The notes under the pieces were generated by a model, which was given only the letters and a program-made list of their open reading frames with translations, did not search any database and was not told the origin of the DNA. DNA of 64,000 bases from Mesorhizobium neociceri (GTDB taxonomy: Bacteria; Pseudomonadota; Alphaproteobacteria; Rhizobiales; Rhizobiaceae). The DNA lies in assembly GCF_013520985.1 (NCBI RefSeq), contig NZ_JACDTY010000003.1, forward strand, positions 1 to 64,000, read 5' to 3'. Positions within the stretch are counted from its first letter, which is position 1, and every line of letters begins with the position of its first letter. Both the position numbers and the translations under genes were made by a program. This document shows positions 1,584 through 34,761 of this stretch, one piece after another.

Positions 1584-2957
<1,374 letters not shown>

Positions 2958-2983
2958 ATTCTGCCGCATTGGCTGACATGACG

Positions 2984-3010
2984 AGGGCGGGATTTTTCCC
3001 GCCCTTTTTC
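2984..3010 (+). terminator. intrinsic terminator after eno
   Basis: The stem AGGGCGGGA ... TCCCGCCCT is followed by TTTTTC, 27 bp after the enolase stop codon: a classic Rho-independent terminator. Confidence 0.9.
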
Positions 3011-3094
3011 ATGGCCGTTGTTGCCAAATCCGTCTGCCCGTAACCGTCCATTAAGCACAATCGGGCGACATAGGGCGGTCAAAGGATTGCGACC

Positions 3095-3418
3095 ATGTGG
3101 ACACGCCAGCACAAGCAGAGAAACACCGGCCGGCTGATCATCCCGTCGCTTTGCGTGGCGTTCCTCGCCTATTTCGGCTTTCATGCCTATCATGGCGAAT
3201 TCGGCATCTATTCCAAATACCAGCTCGAAGCACAGACCGTCGAACTGCAGGCCAAGTACGATGCCATCAAGGCGCGCCGGGTCGATCTGGAGCGTCGTGT
3301 CCAGCTCATGCATGAGGGCACACTTGAAAAGGATATGCTTGACGAGCAGGCGCGCAGAGCGCTCAATCTGTCCCAGGCCGATGAAATCACCATCATGCTG
3401 CCGACGAATCCGAAATAA
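3095..3418 (+). CDS. FtsB/DivIC-type septum formation initiator
   Basis: A 107-residue bitopic membrane protein. After a short basic cytosolic tail (MWTRQHKQRNTGR) comes one transmembrane helix (about residues 14-32), then a periplasmic coiled coil (about 40-75, YQLEAQTVELQAKYDAIKARRVDLERRVQLM). The C-terminal part (DMLDEQARRALNLSQADEI) matches the septum-initiator family. FtsB links FtsL and FtsQ in the divisome. Its place directly after eno is the usual one for ftsB. It is probably transcribed alone, since terminator-like structures lie on both sides. Confidence 0.88.
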   Translation: MWTRQHKQRNTGRLIIPSLCVAFLAYFGFHAYHGEFGIYSKYQLEAQTVELQAKYDAIKARRVDLERRVQLMHEGTLEKDMLDEQARRALNLSQADEITIMLPTNPK

Positions 3419-3532
3419 CTGAATTCCAGTTAATCGCTGTTATCACCAATGATTCTAAACGTTTAGACGCATGCCAGCCATGCATTTTTCTGCATGGCGA
3501 AACGCGTTCTCGCATGTTAGCTTCTTTTAAAT

Positions 3533-3580
3533 CGGTGGGGAGGAGCTGATCCTCCCCAGAGCAGACTTGATCTGCTTTAG
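3533..3580 (+). promoter_or_regulatory. tandem hairpins in the pdhA leader
   Basis: Two adjacent stems lie in the 195-bp gap before pdhA: GGGGAGGA ... TCCTCCCC and then GCAGA ... TCTGC followed by TTT. A third stem (CCATGCA ... TGCATGG) lies near 3478-3498. The last could end the ftsB transcript, and the first two could act as a leader attenuator for pdhA. I recognise no riboswitch or protein-binding motif here. Confidence 0.3.
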
Positions 3581-3613
3581 TGTCCGCAAAGAGACGCCAA
3601 CAGGGAGTGATGC

Positions 3614-4660
3614 ATGGCCACCGCCGCCAAAAAAGCGCCTGCCAAATCCGTCAAATCGACATCCGCCAAATCAACGGGGCTTGCCGCCCCCAAACCAGCC
3701 GAGTTCACCAAGGACGAGGAGCTTGCCGCCTACCGGCACATGCTGCTCATCCGCCGCTTCGAGGAAAAGGCCGGCCAGCTCTACGGCATGGGCTTCATCG
3801 GCGGCTTCTGCCACCTCTATATCGGCCAGGAAGCGGTCGTCACCGGCATGAAGATGGCGCTGATCCAGGGCGACCAGATGATTACCGCCTATCGCGACCA
3901 TGGCCACATGCTGGCGATGGAGCTTTCGCCGCGCGGCGTCATGGCCGAGCTGACCGGACGCCGCGGCGGCCTGTCGAGGGGCAAGGGCGGCTCCATGCAC
4001 ATGTTCTCGAAGGAGAAGCATTTTTACGGCGGCCACGGCATTGTCGGCGCGCAGGTTTCGCTCGGCACGGGCCTGGCCTTCGCCAACCGCTACCGCGACA
4101 ACAACAATGTGTCGCTGACCTATTTCGGTGACGGCGCGGCCAATCAGGGCCAGGTCTATGAAAGCTTCAACATGGCCTCGCTGTGGAAGCTGCCGGTGAT
4201 CTACATCATCGAAAACAACCGCTACGCCATGGGCACTTCGGTGTCGCGTTCGTCGGCCGAAACCAATTTTTCGCATCGCGGCGCATCATTCAAGATTCCC
4301 GGCATCCAGGTCGACGGCATGGATGTGCGTGCGGTCAAATCCGCCGGCGATCAGGCGACCGAATGGTGCCGTGCCGGCAATGGGCCGATTATCCTGGAAA
4401 TGCAGACCTACCGCTATCGCGGCCATTCCATGTCTGACCCGGCAAAATACCGCTCCAAGGAAGAAGTGCAGAAGATGCGCTCCGATCACGACCCGATCGA
4501 GCAGGTCAAGGCACGGCTGATCGGCAAGAAGTGGGCCGACGAAGACGAGCTCAAGAATATCGACAAGCAGGTCCGCGACATCGTCGCCGACGCCGCCGAA
4601 TTCGCCCAGCACGACGCCGAGCCGGATCCGTCCGAGCTCTGGACCGACATCGTATTGTAA
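3614..4660 (+). CDS. pdhA: pyruvate dehydrogenase E1 component, alpha subunit
   Basis: A 348-residue thiamine-diphosphate subunit of the E1 heterotetramer that decarboxylates pyruvate and acetylates the E2 lipoyl group. The first 30 residues are Ala/Lys-rich and probably flexible. The ThDP/Mg motif GDGAANQGQ...NN spans about residues 172-202 (GDGAANQGQVYESFNMASLW ... IIENNRYAMG). The phosphorylation-loop equivalent YRGHSMSDPAKYRSKEE is also present. It is followed at 16 bp by pdhB and then pdhC, so the three form one operon. The ATG at 3614 follows a modest ribosome site (GGGAG). Confidence 0.97.
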   Translation: MATAAKKAPAKSVKSTSAKSTGLAAPKPAEFTKDEELAAYRHMLLIRRFEEKAGQLYGMGFIGGFCHLYIGQEAVVTGMKMALIQGDQMITAYRDHGHMLAMELSPRGVMAELTGRRGGLSRGKGGSMHMFSKEKHFYGGHGIVGAQVSLGTGLAFANRYRDNNNVSLTYFGDGAANQGQVYESFNMASLWKLPVIYIIENNRYAMGTSVSRSSAETNFSHRGASFKIPGIQVDGMDVRAVKSAGDQATEWCRAGNGPIILEMQTYRYRGHSMSDPAKYRSKEEVQKMRSDHDPIEQVKARLIGKKWADEDELKNIDKQVRDIVADAAEFAQHDAEPDPSELWTDIVL

Positions 4661-29333: not shown

Positions 29334-29661
29334 CTAGGTGCCCGATGCCACCAAGAGTGCCCGTATCCTGGAGGGCTCGAAGGGCAATACCGGGAGGCGG
29401 TCTGAAAGCCAGCCCTGCATGCCACCCTCGACGTCAGTAACGTTGCTTAGACCAATGCGCACCAGGTTCGCGGCAGCAAAACTCGACTGATAGCCTTGGT
29501 TGCAGAGCACTAGAATGCGCTGCTTGTAGTCGTCTTTGTTGATCATTTCGTGGCGCCACGGAGCGCTCGGATCGCAGCGCCAATCAAATTCGTTGCGGCT
29601 GATAATCGCCGCGTTAGGAATCTCGCCGTCGCGGGCTCGTTGCTCGAGGTAGCGGATGTCG
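29334..29661 (-). pseudogene. rhodanese gene, C-terminal part cut off by an insertion
   Basis: This is the 3' three quarters of a single-domain rhodanese, reading in frame from the insertion junction: RDGEIPNAAIISRNEF, then the active-site loop VLCNQGYQSS with its catalytic cysteine, then the terminal GGMQGWLSDRLPV. The 5' quarter lies on the other side of the insertion element (33108-33221). Removing the element and one 8-bp target copy restores a continuous 429-bp frame of 142 residues. Translation from the internal ATG at 29546 would still yield a peptide containing the catalytic loop, but half the fold would be missing. Confidence 0.9.
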
Positions 29662-29685
29662 GGTAGTGGGTCAGTTTGAAATCTG
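29662..29685 (+). repeat. left terminal inverted repeat of the element
   Basis: The 24-bp end beginning GGTAGTGGGTCAG is identical, inverted, to the right end. The last codons of the transposase (Q-I-S-N-stop) are encoded inside it. Confidence 0.95.
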
Positions 29686-30561
29686 ACCCTGCTTTTTATA
29701 TGAGCCGCGAACTTTCGGCTGCTCGGCTTCCTTGGCTTCGATCAGCGCGACGATATCGCTGATTTCCCAAAGCTTGCCAGTCACACCAGCCGCCATCGCC
29801 GGGGTCATCCGCAAGGTCGTATGGATGCGAACGAAGTTGTAATACATGAAATGCAGAGCGACCGCGTTGGCGTGAGCCTCAACCTTCTTGGAAAAGCCAT
29901 TGGTCAGGCGCGTGAAGCGGCGCATGTGCATCCGCATGGTGAGGTTCTGGCGTTCGGCAAAGGACGTGCTGACGTGCTTGATGTCTGGATTGCCTTCGAT
30001 CCGCTCTTTCCGCGCACCAGTGCATTCGGCGGGGCTATAGCGGCCCTTGGCACTGTCAGGCGAAGCACCATAGAGCTTGATCAGCATGGCGTAGTCGATG
30101 TCGCCGCCGAAGGCACCTTCAACAGCCTCTAGATAAGCCCTGTGGCCATCGCTGGTCAGCTGGACGCGATTGGCGAGGCGACGGGAAAGATCGTCCATGA
30201 AGCCCATTGCGTATTCACTGTCGCGACCGCCGACCAGCCACGACATGACAAGCTTAGTGTCGGCATCGATAGCCGTCCAAGTCCATGTGTCGCCAGCGCC
30301 TTCCGGTGCAGCCTTTGCGGTCGCGACGTTCTTCTGCTTGGCGTAGGTGAACGACCAAATTTCATCGACCTGAATGCGCTTGCAGGTCAGGTTGCGAAGG
30401 GCTTCGTCCTGATAAGCGGCACACACCGCGCCCGCGTCCGACAGAAGCTTGGCAACGGTGTTCTTGCTCATGCCCATGACGCGCGTGATGGCACGGATCG
30501 ATTGGCCCTCGACCAGCAGGTGAAGGATTTTGGAACGGGTCGCGGTGTCGAGCTTGTTCAT
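29671..30561 (-). CDS. DDE transposase, IS1-family-like
   Basis: A 296-residue transposase that fills the left part of the element. An N-terminal helix-turn-helix ([34 protein letters not shown]) is followed by the catalytic domain. Candidate DDE residues are the aspartate in QVDEIWSF, the aspartate in [10 protein letters not shown] and the glutamate in [24 protein letters not shown]. This type, common in rhizobia and usually labelled IS1 family, is encoded in one frame without the programmed frameshift of classical IS1. The gene looks intact, and its 3' end lies in the left terminal repeat. It is divergent from the cargo operon. Confidence 0.9.
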
Positions 30562-30609
30562 GAGCAGACACTACGCTTTCCTGCCCGATAGTCAAGCATA
30601 AAGGTCAGT

Positions 30610-30638
30610 TTGCGATTTTGCGCGGGTTGGCCTATAAG
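30610..30638 (+). promoter_or_regulatory. predicted promoter of the cargo operon
   Basis: TTGCGA (30610-30615) and TATAAG (30633-30638) are separated by 17 bp and lie 34 bp before the ATG of the HTH/metalloprotease gene. Spacing and position fit a housekeeping-sigma promoter. Confidence 0.5.
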
Positions 30639-30672
30639 ACGGAATCAGAGTGTGGGGGCACAGGGACCAAGC

Positions 30673-31809
30673 ATGGAATACAAGACACCGGGCCAATTGA
30701 TTGAAGCGCTCTTGAATGAAAGGGGTTGGTCGCAACGTTCGCTTGCCGTCATTTTGGACAAGGGCGAAACGACCATCAACAAACTGATTTCCGGTCAAAG
30801 CCGCGTCAGCGCGGAAATGGCCCTCGGATTAGAAGAGGTTTTTGGAGTCAAAGCTGAACGCTTCCTCGAACTTCAGCACCAGTACGATCTTGCGAAAGCC
30901 AGGATTGAAGCCCGCCCCGATCCAGGCCGAGCAAACCGCGCCAAAATATACGGGGATCTCCCCGTCGCAAAAATGATTGAGCGCGGCTGGATTCAGGCTG
31001 AAGGCATCCGCGATACCGAAAATGTTGAGCGAGAGCTACGCCGATTTTTCGGGGTAAACCGCTTGGAGGACGCCGAGATTATGCCGCACGCCGCGCGGAA
31101 AACTCAAACCAGTATTGAGGCAACGCCAGCACAAATGGCTTGGCTCTACAGGGTAAAGTCCATTGCAGAGGGAATGCTGGTCGGGTCGTACTCGCCAAAA
31201 GCTGTCGAAATCGCCATCGCGAACATAAAGCCCCTTTTGGGCCATCCTGAGCATATGCGGCGCGTTCCACGCATCCTCGCTGAAGCCGGCATTAGGTTTG
31301 TAGTGGTTGAAGGGCTGCCCGGTGGCAAAATTGACGGTGTATGCCTTTGGCTCAACGAGCGATCTCCCGTTGTAGGAATGACCCTGAGATTTGACCGCAT
31401 CGACAACTTTATTTTCGTCCTTCGGCACGAATTGGAACACGTCAAAAATCGTGATGGCCAGAACGGTGCAGCAATGTTGGACGTTGACCTTGGGGGTGAT
31501 GTCCATGTGGAGTTGGAAATAACGGTAGCTCAGCAAGAGGCGATTGCGAATGCAGCAGCTGCCGAGTTCTGTATCCCATCAAAAATGATGGACGCTTTCA
31601 TAAAGCGAAAGGCGCCTTACTTTTCTGAGCGCGACCTCATTGGCTTTGCTCGAACAATGAAAGTCCACCCCGGTATTGTCGCCGGTCAGCTTCAACGAAG
31701 AACGGAGCAATACCATAAATTCCGCCAGCATCTGGTGAGTGTTCGTGAGTACATTATCCCAACAGCCGAAACGGATGGTTGGGGCGATATCCATCCAATC
31801 GAACCATAG
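30673..31809 (+). CDS. HigA-like HTH protein fused to ImmA/IrrE metallopeptidase domain
   Basis: A 378-residue cargo protein. Residues 1-75 are a HigA/XRE-type helix-turn-helix (SQRSLAVILDKGETTINKLISGQSRVSAEMALGLEEVFG). The C-terminal half is an ImmA/IrrE-type zinc peptidase with the HExxH motif at H252-H256 (FVLRHELEHVKNRDG). In ICEBs1 and Deinococcus such peptidases cleave repressors; HigA proteins are antitoxins. A fusion could therefore act as a self-cleaving regulator or as an addiction/defence component. I start at ATG 30673 (MEYKTPGQLIEALLNE). It is followed 13 bp later by the next gene. Codon use is AT-richer than the chromosome. Confidence 0.85.
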   Translation: MEYKTPGQLIEALLNERGWSQRSLAVILDKGETTINKLISGQSRVSAEMALGLEEVFGVKAERFLELQHQYDLAKARIEARPDPGRANRAKIYGDLPVAKMIERGWIQAEGIRDTENVERELRRFFGVNRLEDAEIMPHAARKTQTSIEATPAQMAWLYRVKSIAEGMLVGSYSPKAVEIAIANIKPLLGHPEHMRRVPRILAEAGIRFVVVEGLPGGKIDGVCLWLNERSPVVGMTLRFDRIDNFIFVLRHELEHVKNRDGQNGAAMLDVDLGGDVHVELEITVAQQEAIANAAAAEFCIPSKMMDAFIKRKAPYFSERDLIGFARTMKVHPGIVAGQLQRRTEQYHKFRQHLVSVREYIIPTAETDGWGDIHPIEP

Positions 31810-31822
31810 GAACCAATCAACG

Positions 31823-32299
31823 ATGGCCGGCCCAAAGACACTTCAAAAATTGATTGCTCTCTACCGGGTAAAGACCGGGGAGACGGAAATGGACCCTGCT
31901 AAGATTGCGGATTTTGCATTAGCAAATGGGGTAGCTCTTCCCACTCCTGCGGACCCGAAGAAATTGCTTGTGCAACAAATCAGCCAAGCAGCCCGGGAAG
32001 AAATGCGCGTTGATAGGACGACAGGACGTCCATATCGCGCCTACCACTCGCTGCCGGTTCCACAAGGTGGAGAGACTTTATTCTTCTGGATTGATATCGA
32101 GGACGCCTCGCGGGCTCAAATGGTTCGCTCCACCAATCGTCGCCGCGAGCATGTGGTTGGCGAGTTGGTACAGCTTAGCTTTGATCTCGATCATTGGGCC
32201 GCTTCCAACCCTAAGGAAGAGCCGATCGAAGCAGAACTTGATTTCAGTCTGGACGTTGAATGGAGGAAGGCTTCTGACGAAGAGGATGGGGCGGCTTAA
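31823..32299 (+). CDS. unknown cargo protein, second gene of the HTH/metallopeptidase operon
   Basis: A 158-residue soluble protein with no family I can name. The N-terminal third is helical (KTLQKLIALYRVKTGETEMDPAKIADFALANGVALPTP). The middle is mixed and contains TTGRPYRAYHSLPVPQGGETLFFWIDIEDA, and the end is acidic (ELDFSLDVEW...DEEDGAA). It begins 13 bp after the HTH/metallopeptidase gene, so the two should be co-expressed and may act together, for example as target and peptidase; that is inference from position only. Its 3' end overlaps the convergent 74-residue gene by 4 bp. Confidence 0.75.
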   Translation: MAGPKTLQKLIALYRVKTGETEMDPAKIADFALANGVALPTPADPKKLLVQQISQAAREEMRVDRTTGRPYRAYHSLPVPQGGETLFFWIDIEDASRAQMVRSTNRRREHVVGELVQLSFDLDHWAASNPKEEPIEAELDFSLDVEWRKASDEEDGAA

Positions 32300-32520
32300 T
32301 CGCCCTTTTTCCAGCGAGCTTGCGCGGCAACAGTCGCAATTTCTGACCTTTGTTCTGGCGTCAGTGTTTTAGCGCGAGCCTTGCCACCTTTGAGCCCGCC
32401 CTTGCGGGCACTGGCGAGCGGCTTCTTGTCCTCAGTCTCGCCTGTCGCCAGATCGACGATCGACTTCGCCAATTGGTTTGGGTCGCGCGGGCGCTTAGGG
32501 GCTTTAGGTCCAGTGGGCAT
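32296..32520 (-). CDS. small basic unknown protein in the element
   Basis: A 74-residue, very basic protein. The N-terminus (GPKAPKRPRDPNQLAKSIVDLATGE) is followed by ARKGGLKGGKARAKTLTPEQRSEIATVAAQARWKKG. Its lysine/glycine repeats resemble histone H1-like or KGG-motif proteins, suggesting nucleic-acid binding. I recall similar short proteins near HTH genes on rhizobial islands but cannot name a function. It runs opposite to the two preceding cargo genes and in the same direction as the cytochrome gene upstream of it, 6 bp apart. Confidence 0.7.
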   Translation of the reverse strand: MPTGPKAPKRPRDPNQLAKSIVDLATGETEDKKPLASARKGGLKGGKARAKTLTPEQRSEIATVAAQARWKKGD

Positions 32521-32526
32521 AGGTCG

Positions 32527-33009
32527 TTACTTCTTCGGCGTCTGAGGTGGCGCTAGGGTGACGTAAGGTGTCTTCGGCTCCTTGCCAATGGTCCGATAAC
32601 GCGGCGCCGCATCGCCGGGCGCGCCGAGCGATGTGATGTAGAGAAACAACGAACGTGAGTCGCTTTCGTTCATGGCTTGGACCTGGTACCAGGGCATTGG
32701 CGGCATTGTGAACCTGTTCTTCAGGTAGTCTACCCATTTGTCCACCGTATACACTCTTGCCGATTCCCTTAGATTTGATGCATAGGTCGTGCCCCAGGGA
32801 CCCCGCCAGCCCACGGAAGAGCCCTTCAACGCTTTCTCCGGATCGATTTTCCCATCGGCTTCACGGTATCCTTCCGTATGGCAGAAATGGCAGCCGCCGA
32901 TGATCGAAATATACAAACCGCGTTCGACGGAAACCTCATCGGCCGCCAGTAGTTGGCTGGATGGCACGATGCACAGAGCGACGGCGGCACAAAGATCGAT
33001 TGTTCGCAT
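32527..33009 (-). CDS. exported c-type cytochrome carried by the element
   Basis: A 160-residue periplasmic cytochrome c. The signal peptide is MRTIDLCAAVALCIVPSSQLLAADE, and one haem-attachment motif C40-HF-C43-H44 (GGCHFCHTEG) follows. The probable axial methionine lies in the MPPMPWYQVQAM segment. Such mono-haem cytochromes serve as electron acceptors for periplasmic dehydrogenases, including sulfite oxidases, but no dehydrogenase gene is in the element. I start at ATG 33009 behind GGGGGAGG. Both terminal repeats enclose it, so it is cargo rather than host DNA. Confidence 0.88.
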   Translation of the reverse strand: MRTIDLCAAVALCIVPSSQLLAADEVSVERGLYISIIGGCHFCHTEGYREADGKIDPEKALKGSSVGWRGPWGTTYASNLRESARVYTVDKWVDYLKNRFTMPPMPWYQVQAMNESDSRSLFLYITSLGAPGDAAPRYRTIGKEPKTPYVTLAPPQTPKK

Positions 33010-33088
33010 ATTCGCTGCCTCCCCCTGACTGATTGCCGCCATCATACGCTAATGATCAGCTACATTCGACGGGCATCGTCAAGGCGGG

Positions 33089-33112
33089 CAGATTTCAAAC
33101 TGACCCACTACC
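33089..33112 (-). repeat. right terminal inverted repeat of the element
   Basis: The exact reverse complement of the left end, followed directly by the second copy of the target duplication GGATGTCG at 33113-33120. Confidence 0.95.
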
Positions 33113-33221
33113 GGATGTCGACAAGCAGTGCACCTTGCTGCATTTCCTGATAGGCTGCAGCCGGCGAGCGGCGCGGTGTCAGCATGGCGCGAGCTTCACT
33201 GAGTATTTCATCAACTGTCAT
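33108..33221 (-). pseudogene. rhodanese gene, N-terminal part
   Basis: The 5' end of the disrupted rhodanese gene, from ATG 33221 behind a G-rich ribosome site. It encodes 37 residues ending GALLVDIR and then meets a TAG inside the element's terminal repeat. GALLVDIR is the conserved first strand of rhodanese domains, and the other half at 29334-29661 continues in frame. It starts 21 bp after the ArsR-rhodanese stop, so it was the second gene of that operon, and the insertion should abolish it. Confidence 0.9.
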
Positions 33222-33242: not shown

Positions 33243-33908
33243 CTACATCGTCACCTCAACAGGCAGTCCCGCTGCTTTCCATTCCGGCAGTCCGTCTTCC
33301 AAACGCCGAGCCTGGAAGCCGCATTTGCGAAGCGCCGCAACAGCTTCAAATGACATCACGCACCAAGGTCCGCGGCAGTAAGCAACAATTTCGCGATCCG
33401 GGTCGATTTCCGCGAGACGCGCTTGAAGATCGGTGAGCGGCACATTGATCGCGCCCGGCACGTGACCGAGCGCGAACTCGTCCGGTGGGCGGACGTCAAT
33501 CACGGTAACTAGCCCGTCGCGCATCCGAGCTGCCAGCCCCTCTCGGGTTACAGGCTCCATGCTGTCGCGAGATTCGAAATAGCCCTGCACGATACGGTCG
33601 ACCTCGGCGAGGTGGCGCTCCGCGACGGAGCGGATCGACGCGAACAGCGACAGCACGGTGTCGTCGGCGAGCCGATAGTTCACGAATTTTCCCTCGCGTT
33701 CGGCCTGGACCAGTCCAGCTCTGCGCAGGGTCTGCAGGTGCTGAGAGACATTGGCGATCGGAAGCCCGACCTTGGTAGCCAGCAGGTCAACGCTGCGTTC
33801 ACCCTGCGCCAGATGTTCGATCAGCTCCAGCCGCTGAGGGTTGCCGAGCGCCTTCGCTACAATCGCGAACTGCTCATAGAGTGCCTGTTTCGGTTTGCGG
33901 ATTGACAT
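33243..33908 (-). CDS. ArsR-type repressor fused to a rhodanese domain
   Basis: A 221-residue protein. Residues 10-95 are an ArsR winged helix (AKALGNPQRLELIEHLAQGERSVDLLATKVGLPIANVSQHLQTLRRAGLV). Residues 120-218 are a rhodanese domain with catalytic C178 in VAYCRGPWC and a second cysteine, C183, nearby. There are no metal-binding cysteines in the winged helix, so sensing probably occurs through persulfidation or disulfide formation at the rhodanese cysteines. That is inference, by analogy with sulfur-responsive ArsR regulators such as BigR and SqrR. It is divergent from the persulfide-dioxygenase-like gene, with an AT-rich inverted repeat between. Confidence 0.92.
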   Translation of the reverse strand: MSIRKPKQALYEQFAIVAKALGNPQRLELIEHLAQGERSVDLLATKVGLPIANVSQHLQTLRRAGLVQAEREGKFVNYRLADDTVLSLFASIRSVAERHLAEVDRIVQGYFESRDSMEPVTREGLAARMRDGLVTVIDVRPPDEFALGHVPGAINVPLTDLQARLAEIDPDREIVAYCRGPWCVMSFEAVAALRKCGFQARRLEDGLPEWKAAGLPVEVTM

Positions 33909-33929
33909 CAGCTTCGAGTCAACGTTAGA

Positions 33930-33953
33930 TCATTCAATATAGTTTTTGAATGA
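33930..33953. promoter_or_regulatory. probable operator of the ArsR-rhodanese regulator
   Basis: The arms TCATTCA (33930-33936) and TGAATGA (33947-33953) form a perfect inverted repeat with a 10-bp AT-rich spacer. It sits 22 bp upstream of the regulator ATG and 77 bp before the divergent hydrolase gene. Reported operators of sulfide-responsive ArsR proteins are also ATTC ... GAAT palindromes, though with different spacing. Confidence 0.6.
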
Positions 33954-34029
33954 CACGCATCGACCGCCCTGTCAAGGTTCGGCGCATTTCGCTGGGCCGT
34001 TGATGGCGGCCCATGAAGGACACATCCCC

Positions 34030-34761
34030 ATGATCCTGCGCCAGTTTCTTCATTCCGACCCCGTGGCCGTATCCTACCTCTTTGGCTGCGGCGGTAAGGC
34101 ATCCGCTGCGGTCGTTGATCCCGTTGGCGACGTTCAGCCCTATCTCGATGCGGCCAAGGCGACCGGCATGCGCATCCTCTACGTGATCGATACGCATATC
34201 CATGCAGATCATGTCTCGGCCGGCCGCGCCCTCGCGCAAGCCGCCGGTGCGGAATATGTGCTGCATGAGAGCGCCGCCGCCGATTTCGACTTCCACCGGG
34301 TCAAGGACGGCGAGGTGCTTGAACTTGGCAATGTCACCGCGCAGATCATGCACACGCCCGGCCATACGCCCGAGCACATTGCATTGCTGGTCACCGACCG
34401 TACACGCACCGTCGAACCCTGGTTCGTGCTGACGGGCCATACGCTGATGGTCGGCGATCTTGGCCGCACCGAGCTTGCCTCAAGCGCAGAAGAGGGCGCG
34501 CGCTCCCTGTTTGCCAGCGCCCAGCGCCTCAAGGACCTGCCCGACCATGTCGAGGTATTGCCCGGCGCCTTTTCCGGGTCGGTATGTGGCCGTTCGCTCA
34601 GCGGCAAGCCGACATCGACCATTGGTTTTGAGAAGCGATTCAACAAAGCTTTTCGCATCGCTGATGAGACCGAATTCGTCGCGGCCATGGTGGCCGATAT
34701 TCCTCCGCCACCGCCGGAGGCGGCGCGCACCCGCGCGCTGAATGCCGGAGCCGCACAGTGA
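34030..34761 (+). CDS. MBL-fold persulfide-dioxygenase-like hydrolase (ETHE1/Blh type)
   Basis: A 243-residue metallo-beta-lactamase-fold protein with the metal motif H56-x-H58-x-D60-H61 (DTHIHADH), a further histidine in MHTPGHTPEH, and an aspartate in LMVGDLGRTE. It belongs to the group containing ETHE1 and Blh, which oxidise glutathione persulfide to sulfite in sulfide detoxification. I start at ATG 34030 (MILRQFLHSDPVAVSYLFG). The GTG of the MFS gene overlaps its stop. Its pairing with rhodanese genes and an ArsR regulator supports a sulfane-sulfur role; the exact substrate is inferred. Confidence 0.88.
   Translation: MILRQFLHSDPVAVSYLFGCGGKASAAVVDPVGDVQPYLDAAKATGMRILYVIDTHIHADHVSAGRALAQAAGAEYVLHESAAADFDFHRVKDGEVLELGNVTAQIMHTPGHTPEHIALLVTDRTRTVEPWFVLTGHTLMVGDLGRTELASSAEEGARSLFASAQRLKDLPDHVEVLPGAFSGSVCGRSLSGKPTSTIGFEKRFNKAFRIADETEFVAAMVADIPPPPPEAARTRALNAGAAQ

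Follow-up and report, generated by a model that had tools for sequence, protein, structure and literature searches.

What kind of mobile unit splits a rhodanese gene of Mesorhizobium neociceri, and which of its genes belong to the unit itself and which are carried along? We addressed this question in the window, the whole stretch of 64,000 nucleotides that was analysed (positions 1 to 64,000 of contig NZ_JACDTY010000003.1, assembly GCF_013520985.1), where an insert of 3,451 bp at 29662-33112 lies inside the gene. The insert encodes an IS1-type transposase (P0001), a helix-turn-helix (HTH) protein with an IrrE-type peptidase domain (P0002), a protein of no known family (P0003), a small basic protein (P0004) and a c-type cytochrome (P0005). 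A preliminary description had taken it for a transporter-type insertion sequence (IS) moving everything but the transposase as cargo. We consider, with a probability of roughly 0.78, that it is a transposon of the IS1/transporter-IS kind, with a core of transposase and P0004, GGTAGTGGGTCA-type ends, 8-bp target duplications, a slot exchanging mostly toxin-antitoxin (TA) or anti-phage modules, and optional outer slots. The proposal is built on features read from the sequences, namely the ends, the duplication, the empty site, the two-gene core, the turnover of the slot, the grouping of a cassette form lacking HigB on the peptidase tree, and copies of the end core at the transposase promoter.

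Insertion into the rhodanese gene and the family of elements

The two ends of the insert were identical over 24 of 24 bp, and over 26 of 27 when extended to 27 bp, and both were flanked directly by an exact copy of GGATGTCG. Joining the flanks on a single GGATGTCG gave a continuous rhodanese frame of 429 bp (142 aa) on the minus strand (29334..33221). The empty site was then identified in relatives: genome G248 (locus L135) matched the joined flanks at 94% over 1,594 columns with no insert, a single GGATGTCG and an intact 142-aa frame, and genome G357 (L136) was insert-free across the junction at 84% over 1,077 columns. The repeats, the duplication, the restored frame and the empty site proposed in the preliminary description were thus all recovered, and its suggestion of recent movement fits an arrival that we grade as fairly recent, the insertion being probably younger than the split from G248. 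When the 24-bp end was searched with up to 3 mismatches in the organism's own genome (7.29 Mb, 72 contigs), these two sites and one lone 3-mismatch copy were found, and the reversed-pattern control returned zero matches. Contig 28 of the same genome holds a transposase fragment that looks like another relic, and the five closest transposases on the transposase tree are Mesorhizobium records.

Transposase relatives were collected by one scan of genome contigs, keeping the best 80 of 196, which gave 81 loci with the window, and the ends were located by searching around each transposase with the end consensus. Both ends were present at 72 of the 81 loci, and 63 of these 72 elements showed a target duplication of 7 or 8 of 8 bases (exact 8 bp in 59). 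Among the nine elements without it, five lack the duplication and four are Tsuneonella contig ends missing one flank; the four Tsuneonella contigs carry one identical 2,047-bp element at two insertion sites in one genome, flanked by CGGGGCCG and CCATTTCT. Seven of the nine loci without a complete pair of ends stop at a contig edge (L028, L041, L045, L059, L078, L080, L096), the right end of L068 has a one-base deletion and that of L051 is absent; a first reading of loci without near ends as transposases outside any element was not borne out. Element length ranged from 1,947 to 4,106 bp with a median of 3,231 (67 elements, setting aside the window, contig copies and the truncated L083). Apart from the window, 62 loci therefore show the same kind of ends with a 7-8 bp duplication around a transposase, which, together with the window's own duplication and the two insert-free relatives, bears out the claim that the whole moved as one unit.

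The arrangement was also found outside this sample. Related elements on plasmids of M. loti, Acidiphilium and Hoeflea have both ends and an exact duplication, and the flanks of a related Methylocapsa element agree at 4 of 8 bases. In a second collection, drawn from viral contigs (best 80 of 233 relatives), paired ends with exact 8-bp duplications occurred at 43 of 80 loci (about 40 of them distinct, as three pairs look like the same element twice), against 2 of 40,208 shifted control pairs. Alignment of 62 insertions (L020-L099 and the window) revealed a symmetric target preference: C, A, A are favoured 10-8 bases ahead of the duplication (0.55, 0.44, 0.53) and T, T, G at the mirror positions behind it (0.66, 0.48, 0.65), giving the pattern CAA-N7-[8 bp]-N7-TTG.

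Some further loci were recorded along the way. L143 (G217:C1:722000-729000) contains at 2618-3959 a decayed copy of 1,342 bp with both ends and the exact duplication CAAAATCG, which retains a P0004 match and transposase residues 162-290. The element of L079, with an OLD-type ATPase and Abi_2, lies in a record labelled Anaerolineales (Chloroflexota), which could be a binning error. Brevundimonas phage vB_BpoS-Gurke (ON529850.1, 321 kb) carries at 174791-175666 a distant (34%), unannotated transposase relative. A RES/Xre pair beside an Acidiphilium transposase was considered as cargo and rejected, since it sits outside the right end.

A core of two genes

A P0004-like gene was detected in 70 of the 72 elements, the exceptions being L054 and the truncated L083, and in 42 of the 43 elements of the second collection. 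Moreover, two elements of that collection, of 1,323 and 1,365 bp, possess ends and duplication and encode P0004 and the transposase and nothing else, which suggests that the other genes are dispensable. On this gene content P0004 belongs to the mobile core and not to the cargo in which the preliminary description had placed it, and the accompanying expectation that IS1 members normally carry a transposase only fails for this branch.

The pairing was also counted in 385 genomes of the class, where a full P0004 match lay within 5 kb of 26 of the 33 near-full-length transposases and a transposase or fragment lay within 5 kb of 29 of the 37 P0004 matches; several of the exceptions that were fetched stop at a contig edge. 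The gene order P0004 - slot - transposase is fixed, with few exceptions, over 72 and 43 elements of the two collections. The RhuM-type cargo proteins of L034, L070 and L094 contain a stretch matching P0004, a piece common to core and cargo, and these profile matches were not counted as P0004 genes.

Contents of the slot, their exchange and competing explanations

The slot between P0004 and the transposase was compared in 68 elements (the 72 minus L057, L058 and L060, which are contig copies of L056, and the truncated L083), its contents being grouped by BLAST and profile clusters with Pfam and PADLOC scans covering some members only. In the window it holds the HigA/IrrE-peptidase gene, similar to PD-Lambda-2_B, and P0003. 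The three-gene set HigB-HigA/IrrE-P0003 fills the slot in 21 elements and the form lacking HigB in 12, the window included. RosmerTA-like pairs were found in 5 elements, a related gene in 1, RhuM in 3, and Fic, a HipA-like protein, an OLD-type ATPase and Bro-N in 1 each. Counting every slot group with at least one member matching a TA or defence model, 46 of the 68 slots are of TA or defence type. The HigB-like gene occurs in 21 of the 72 elements, and the two copies checked both scored above the Pfam HigB-like_toxin cut-off; in L032 PADLOC recognised both RmrA and RmrT, in L073 RmrT. PADLOC matches at <=1e-10 were obtained for 9 of 32 cargo open reading frames (ORFs; P0001, P0004 and a misplaced L042 frame omitted) versus 1 of 20 ORFs from the flanks (160-511 aa; one-sided Fisher p 0.04).

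The view of the cargo as one travelling unit was partly confirmed: passenger genes do lie within the element, and the HTH/IrrE gene with P0003 is one of many interchangeable cassettes. Likewise, of the copies with the same cargo that had been expected, the peptidase-P0003 form recurs as counted above, but the cytochrome c is in no other of the 72 elements and looks like a private passenger. The preliminary description had counted cargo genes living without the terminal repeats against a mobile unit. Such genes were found, as HigB modules in three genomes and as cytochrome homologues at seven loci; the cargo also lives independently, and the evidence for the element stands.

Exchange of the cassettes was examined on a transposase tree of 68 rows and a peptidase tree of 36 rows. 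Slot labels required 42 changes on the transposase tree compared with a shuffled mean of 44.1 (a value matched or undercut in 25 of 200 shuffles), as expected if cassettes are exchanged, and the same cassette types recur on distant branches; counting well-supported branches alone, no fewer than 11 changes are needed for the HigB form and no fewer than 8 for the HigB-less form. A single change accounts for the HigB-less form on the peptidase tree (support 86/92), compared with 11 when it is mapped onto the transposases. A single loss of HigB, or a single lineage that never gained it, is therefore probable, and the two-gene cassette would afterwards have moved from one transposase lineage to another. 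The HExxH motif is kept in 38 of the 38 peptidase homologues checked, an indication that the two-gene form is still functional.

The region upstream of the transposase was also inspected. In 60 of the 68 elements TTGAC lies 25-50 bp ahead of the transposase; a generic promoter scan of 30480-30720 returned no site, so the putative -35 rests on conservation. A -10-like stretch lies very near the ATG, and the transposase message may be leaderless. The sequence AAACTGAC, the reverse complement of the end core, occurs 30-70 bp upstream of the transposase in 34 of the 68 elements versus 37 of 6,800 background windows, and taking both strands over 80 bp a copy of the end core is present in 40 of the 68. 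Because this promoter copy has the sequence of the ends, an end-binding protein is the favoured candidate for its binder.

Several observations weigh against our interpretation, and some of them would fit an ordinary transporter IS, i.e. an IS1-type element with random passengers among which TA and defence genes appear merely because small genes of this sort abound in mobile DNA. Insertion sequences with passengers have been described (PMC11891212), the genes of the outer slots are varied (NYN, GNAT, RusA-like, DUF4760, Abi_2, PemK, cytochrome c), and 22 of the 68 slots have no TA or defence assignment, being filled by nSTAND/AAA (3), a 180-aa group just below the Pfam HARE-HTH cut-off (5), a DUF6941 three-gene set (4), a 429-aa group (3), ClpP-like proteins (2) and singletons (5). 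The PADLOC contrast is modest, its cargo ORFs being picked representatives and its control ORFs not verified as genes, and the best 80 of 196 relatives lean toward near kin. Inheritance also plays a part in the slot, with 14 changes for the HigB form against 18.2 in shuffled trees (9 of 500 as low), and similarly for the DUF6941 set (22 of 500 shuffles as low) and nSTAND (12 of 500). In addition, L221 and L226 have P0004 genes with neither ends nor a transposase nearby, which could be domesticated copies or relics. Against random passengers stand the fixed gene order of both collections, the recurrence of the same cassette types on distant transposase branches and the rarity of PADLOC matches among flanking ORFs, and we regard this explanation as unlikely. 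That the structure arose by chance, or from two independent insertions resembling one element, is scarcely credible given the two empty-site relatives, the 62 further loci and the rarity of exact duplications among the shifted pairs.

A different objection concerns the cassette itself: the peptidase gene and P0003 could regulate the element's own transposition in the manner of ImmR/ImmA, and so not be a cassette of the TA or defence type. In another mobile element, control is exerted by peptidases of the ImmA type (PMC10440598), and P0002 and the transposase are divergent with 111 bp between their start codons in the window. Two further points weigh against our own reading of the cassette: the window copy has no HigB, and neither P0003 nor four homologues matched PADLOC PD-lambda-2_C. 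Of the 33 elements with the PD-lambda-2-like cassette, 28 have the end-core copy ahead of the transposase, versus 12 of 35 without this cassette (p 2e-5); among elements with GG-type ends the figures are 28 of 33 and 12 of 23 (p 0.015), and the copy is absent in 12 of 12 elements with other (non-GG) end types. As the copy goes with the cassette, a cassette regulator such as the HigA-like protein could be its binder. On independent tree pairs this link was not significant (median p 0.29). Furthermore, the peptidase gene is absent from the 35 elements just mentioned (5 of which have an RmrA-type peptidase), 12 of which still carry the promoter copy, and it moves between transposase lineages. The HigB-P0002-P0003 module also exists free of ends, transposase and P0004 in three genomes (L138, L249, L250), and in 3 of 3 no end-core copy precedes HigB; both facts speak against dedicated regulators, and the existence of modules without ends weighs against our own interpretation as well. 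On balance, dedicated regulators appear quite improbable to us, and an exchanged TA/defence-type cassette remains the preferred explanation.

Genes of the window element, known systems and proposed mechanism

The coordinates of the window element are collected in Table 1. All the genes listed in the preliminary description were present, including the cytochrome c with its CHFCH motif.

Table 1. Features of the insert and of the interrupted gene in the window
Feature	Positions	Strand	Remarks
Left copy of 8-bp target duplication, GGATGTCG	29654..29661	.	single copy at empty site
Left terminal inverted repeat	29662..29685	+	overlaps end of transposase frame; family consensus GGTAGTGGGTCAgTTTGAAAT
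Transposase P0001, 296 aa, IS1 type, single frame	29671..30561	-	Pfam DDE_Tnp_IS1
TTGACT, putative -35 of transposase promoter	30590..30595	-	TTGAC conserved across elements
AAACTGACC, copy of terminal-repeat core beside putative -35, putative operator	30603..30611	-	
P0002, 378 aa from ATG, HigA-like HTH and ImmA/IrrE-type peptidase domain (HELEH)	30673..31809	+	PADLOC PD-Lambda-2_B
P0003, 158 aa, no known family, gene after peptidase gene	31823..32299	+	same order in elements and free modules
P0004, 74 aa, small basic core protein, far side of slot	32296..32520	-	occurs in most elements
P0005, 172 aa, c-type cytochrome (CHFCH), outer-slot passenger	32527..33045	-	
Right terminal inverted repeat	33089..33112	-	
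Right copy of 8-bp target duplication, GGATGTCG	33113..33120	.	
Split rhodanese gene	5' part 33113..33221, 3' part 29334-29661	-	

P0001 scored 32.2 bits against Pfam DDE_Tnp_IS1 (cut-off 24.1), in agreement with the proposed IS1-type transposase, and 61 bits against NCBIfam IS1 NF033558, below the equivalog cut-off of 100 although still its best-scoring NCBIfam model; we therefore name it an IS1-type relative and leave its rank open. P0002, for which a longer frame is possible from TTG 30610, matched PADLOC PD-Lambda-2_B (PDLC03982) at 5e-40 over residues 6-358 and TIGR02607 HigA with 56.5 bits (cut-off 47.7), and its peptidase domain is weak in Pfam (Peptidase_M78, 14.6 bits, below the cut-off of 22). 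P0003 gave no match in Pfam, NCBIfam or PADLOC up to E 0.1. Its structure was modelled with a predicted local distance difference test (pLDDT) score of 91, and at E 0.001 the model had no match in either PDB (best Foldseek E 1.1) or BFVD (best Foldseek E 0.09), with VIA-align Z <5, so no fold was assigned, an absent match being no proof of a new fold. P0004 is predicted to form three helices (pLDDT 82), and its homologue in M. loti CP050295 (profile match 2.1e-31) is annotated 'histone H1', a label that is the annotator's name. The profiles of P0003 and P0004 had no match among PDB sequences up to E 1. Among 150 other genomes of the family, 15 have homologues of P0005 (30-53% identity); the ends were absent around all seven loci read, and the neighbourhoods give no functional hint. 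Beside the split rhodanese gene, at 33243-34761, we noted an apparent ArsR-rhodanese fusion and a metallo-beta-lactamase-fold gene, read from the ORFs with no family search made; together with the split gene they perhaps form a single sulfur cluster that has had its first rhodanese disrupted.

The IS1 family is characterised by ends beginning GGnnnTG and by duplications of 8-9 bp; classical IS1 has insA/insB' with a frameshift, and the family includes single-frame members and longer subgroups. The present elements share with IS1, and with the related IS1595 family, the IS1-type DDE domain, short ends beginning with GG (GGTAGTG) and the 8-bp duplication. They differ from IS1 in the second core gene, in their size (1.3 kb minimum, about 3.2 kb median with cargo) and in the score under the NCBIfam IS1 cut-off, and the uninterrupted frame of the window transposase departs from the classical insA/insB' layout. 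As transporter IS (tIS), such as ISNha5 (PMC11891212, citing Siguier 2009), they combine IS-type ends and a transposase with genes probably unneeded for transposition, in line with the type proposed in the preliminary description. Compared with such tIS, however, they have a fixed main cargo position whose contents, mostly of TA or defence types, are exchanged group-wide. TA modules are described as recurrent parts of Tn3-family transposons that are acquired and exchanged (PMC7157771); our elements resemble these in that respect and differ in transposase family, in the 1.3-kb core and in the replacement of cassettes of many kinds, including multi-gene defence-like modules.

In PD-lambda-2, B is toxic alone, A neutralises B and C is needed for defence (PMC9519451). 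The likeness is one of gene content: in the 21 HigB-bearing elements a single operon combines a HigB-like gene, a HigA-peptidase fusion and a third gene; unlike PD-lambda-2, the third gene is not recognisably PD-lambda-2C and the window lineage retains B and lacks A, the HigB-like toxin gene. RmrA-like genes with an upstream gene, resembling RosmerTA (RmrT/RmrA; PMC10440598), occupy the same slot in five elements, the window copy not being among them. A literature search of titles and abstract openings retrieved no description of IS1-type elements that combine a core of two genes with a slot for exchanged TA/defence cassettes, and a search for ISMhu11 retrieved no paper; a named relative in ISfinder is possible. 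Transporter IS and TA-carrying Tn3 transposons being already known, it is this combination that appears to be new.

Taken together, the ends, the duplication and the empty site support movement of the whole unit by IS1-type transposition. P0004 may aid or regulate this process. An end-binding protein, either the transposase or P0004, might also bind the transposase promoter and limit expression. Recombination between the conserved flanks, P0004 on one side and the transposase on the other, might exchange the cassettes, and the slot module may pay for retention of the element through addiction or phage defence. The window slot would then be a two-gene derivative, peptidase gene and P0003, of a PD-lambda-2-like HigB-HigA/IrrE-P0003 module, with the cytochrome c in an outer slot; with HigB missing, either P0003 would have to restrain the peptidase or the peptidase would have taken on another role. 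More tentatively, and with somewhat less than even confidence, a broad IS1-type group, mostly of Alphaproteobacteria, could act as a dedicated shuttle for TA and defence genes, in which P0004 would be a second DNA-binding transposition factor, end copies would limit the transposase and slot exchange would outpace transposase divergence.

The elements would represent a small and concrete vehicle by which TA and defence cassettes jump between genomes outside phages and large islands, and they highlight a small uncharacterised protein family (P0004) as well as the cassette protein P0003. They also offer natural experiments, in that closely related transposases occur with different cassettes and cassettes occur both inside elements and free. 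Finally, the position of the slot may serve as a simple rule for finding new defence genes, the unassigned slots being the candidates.

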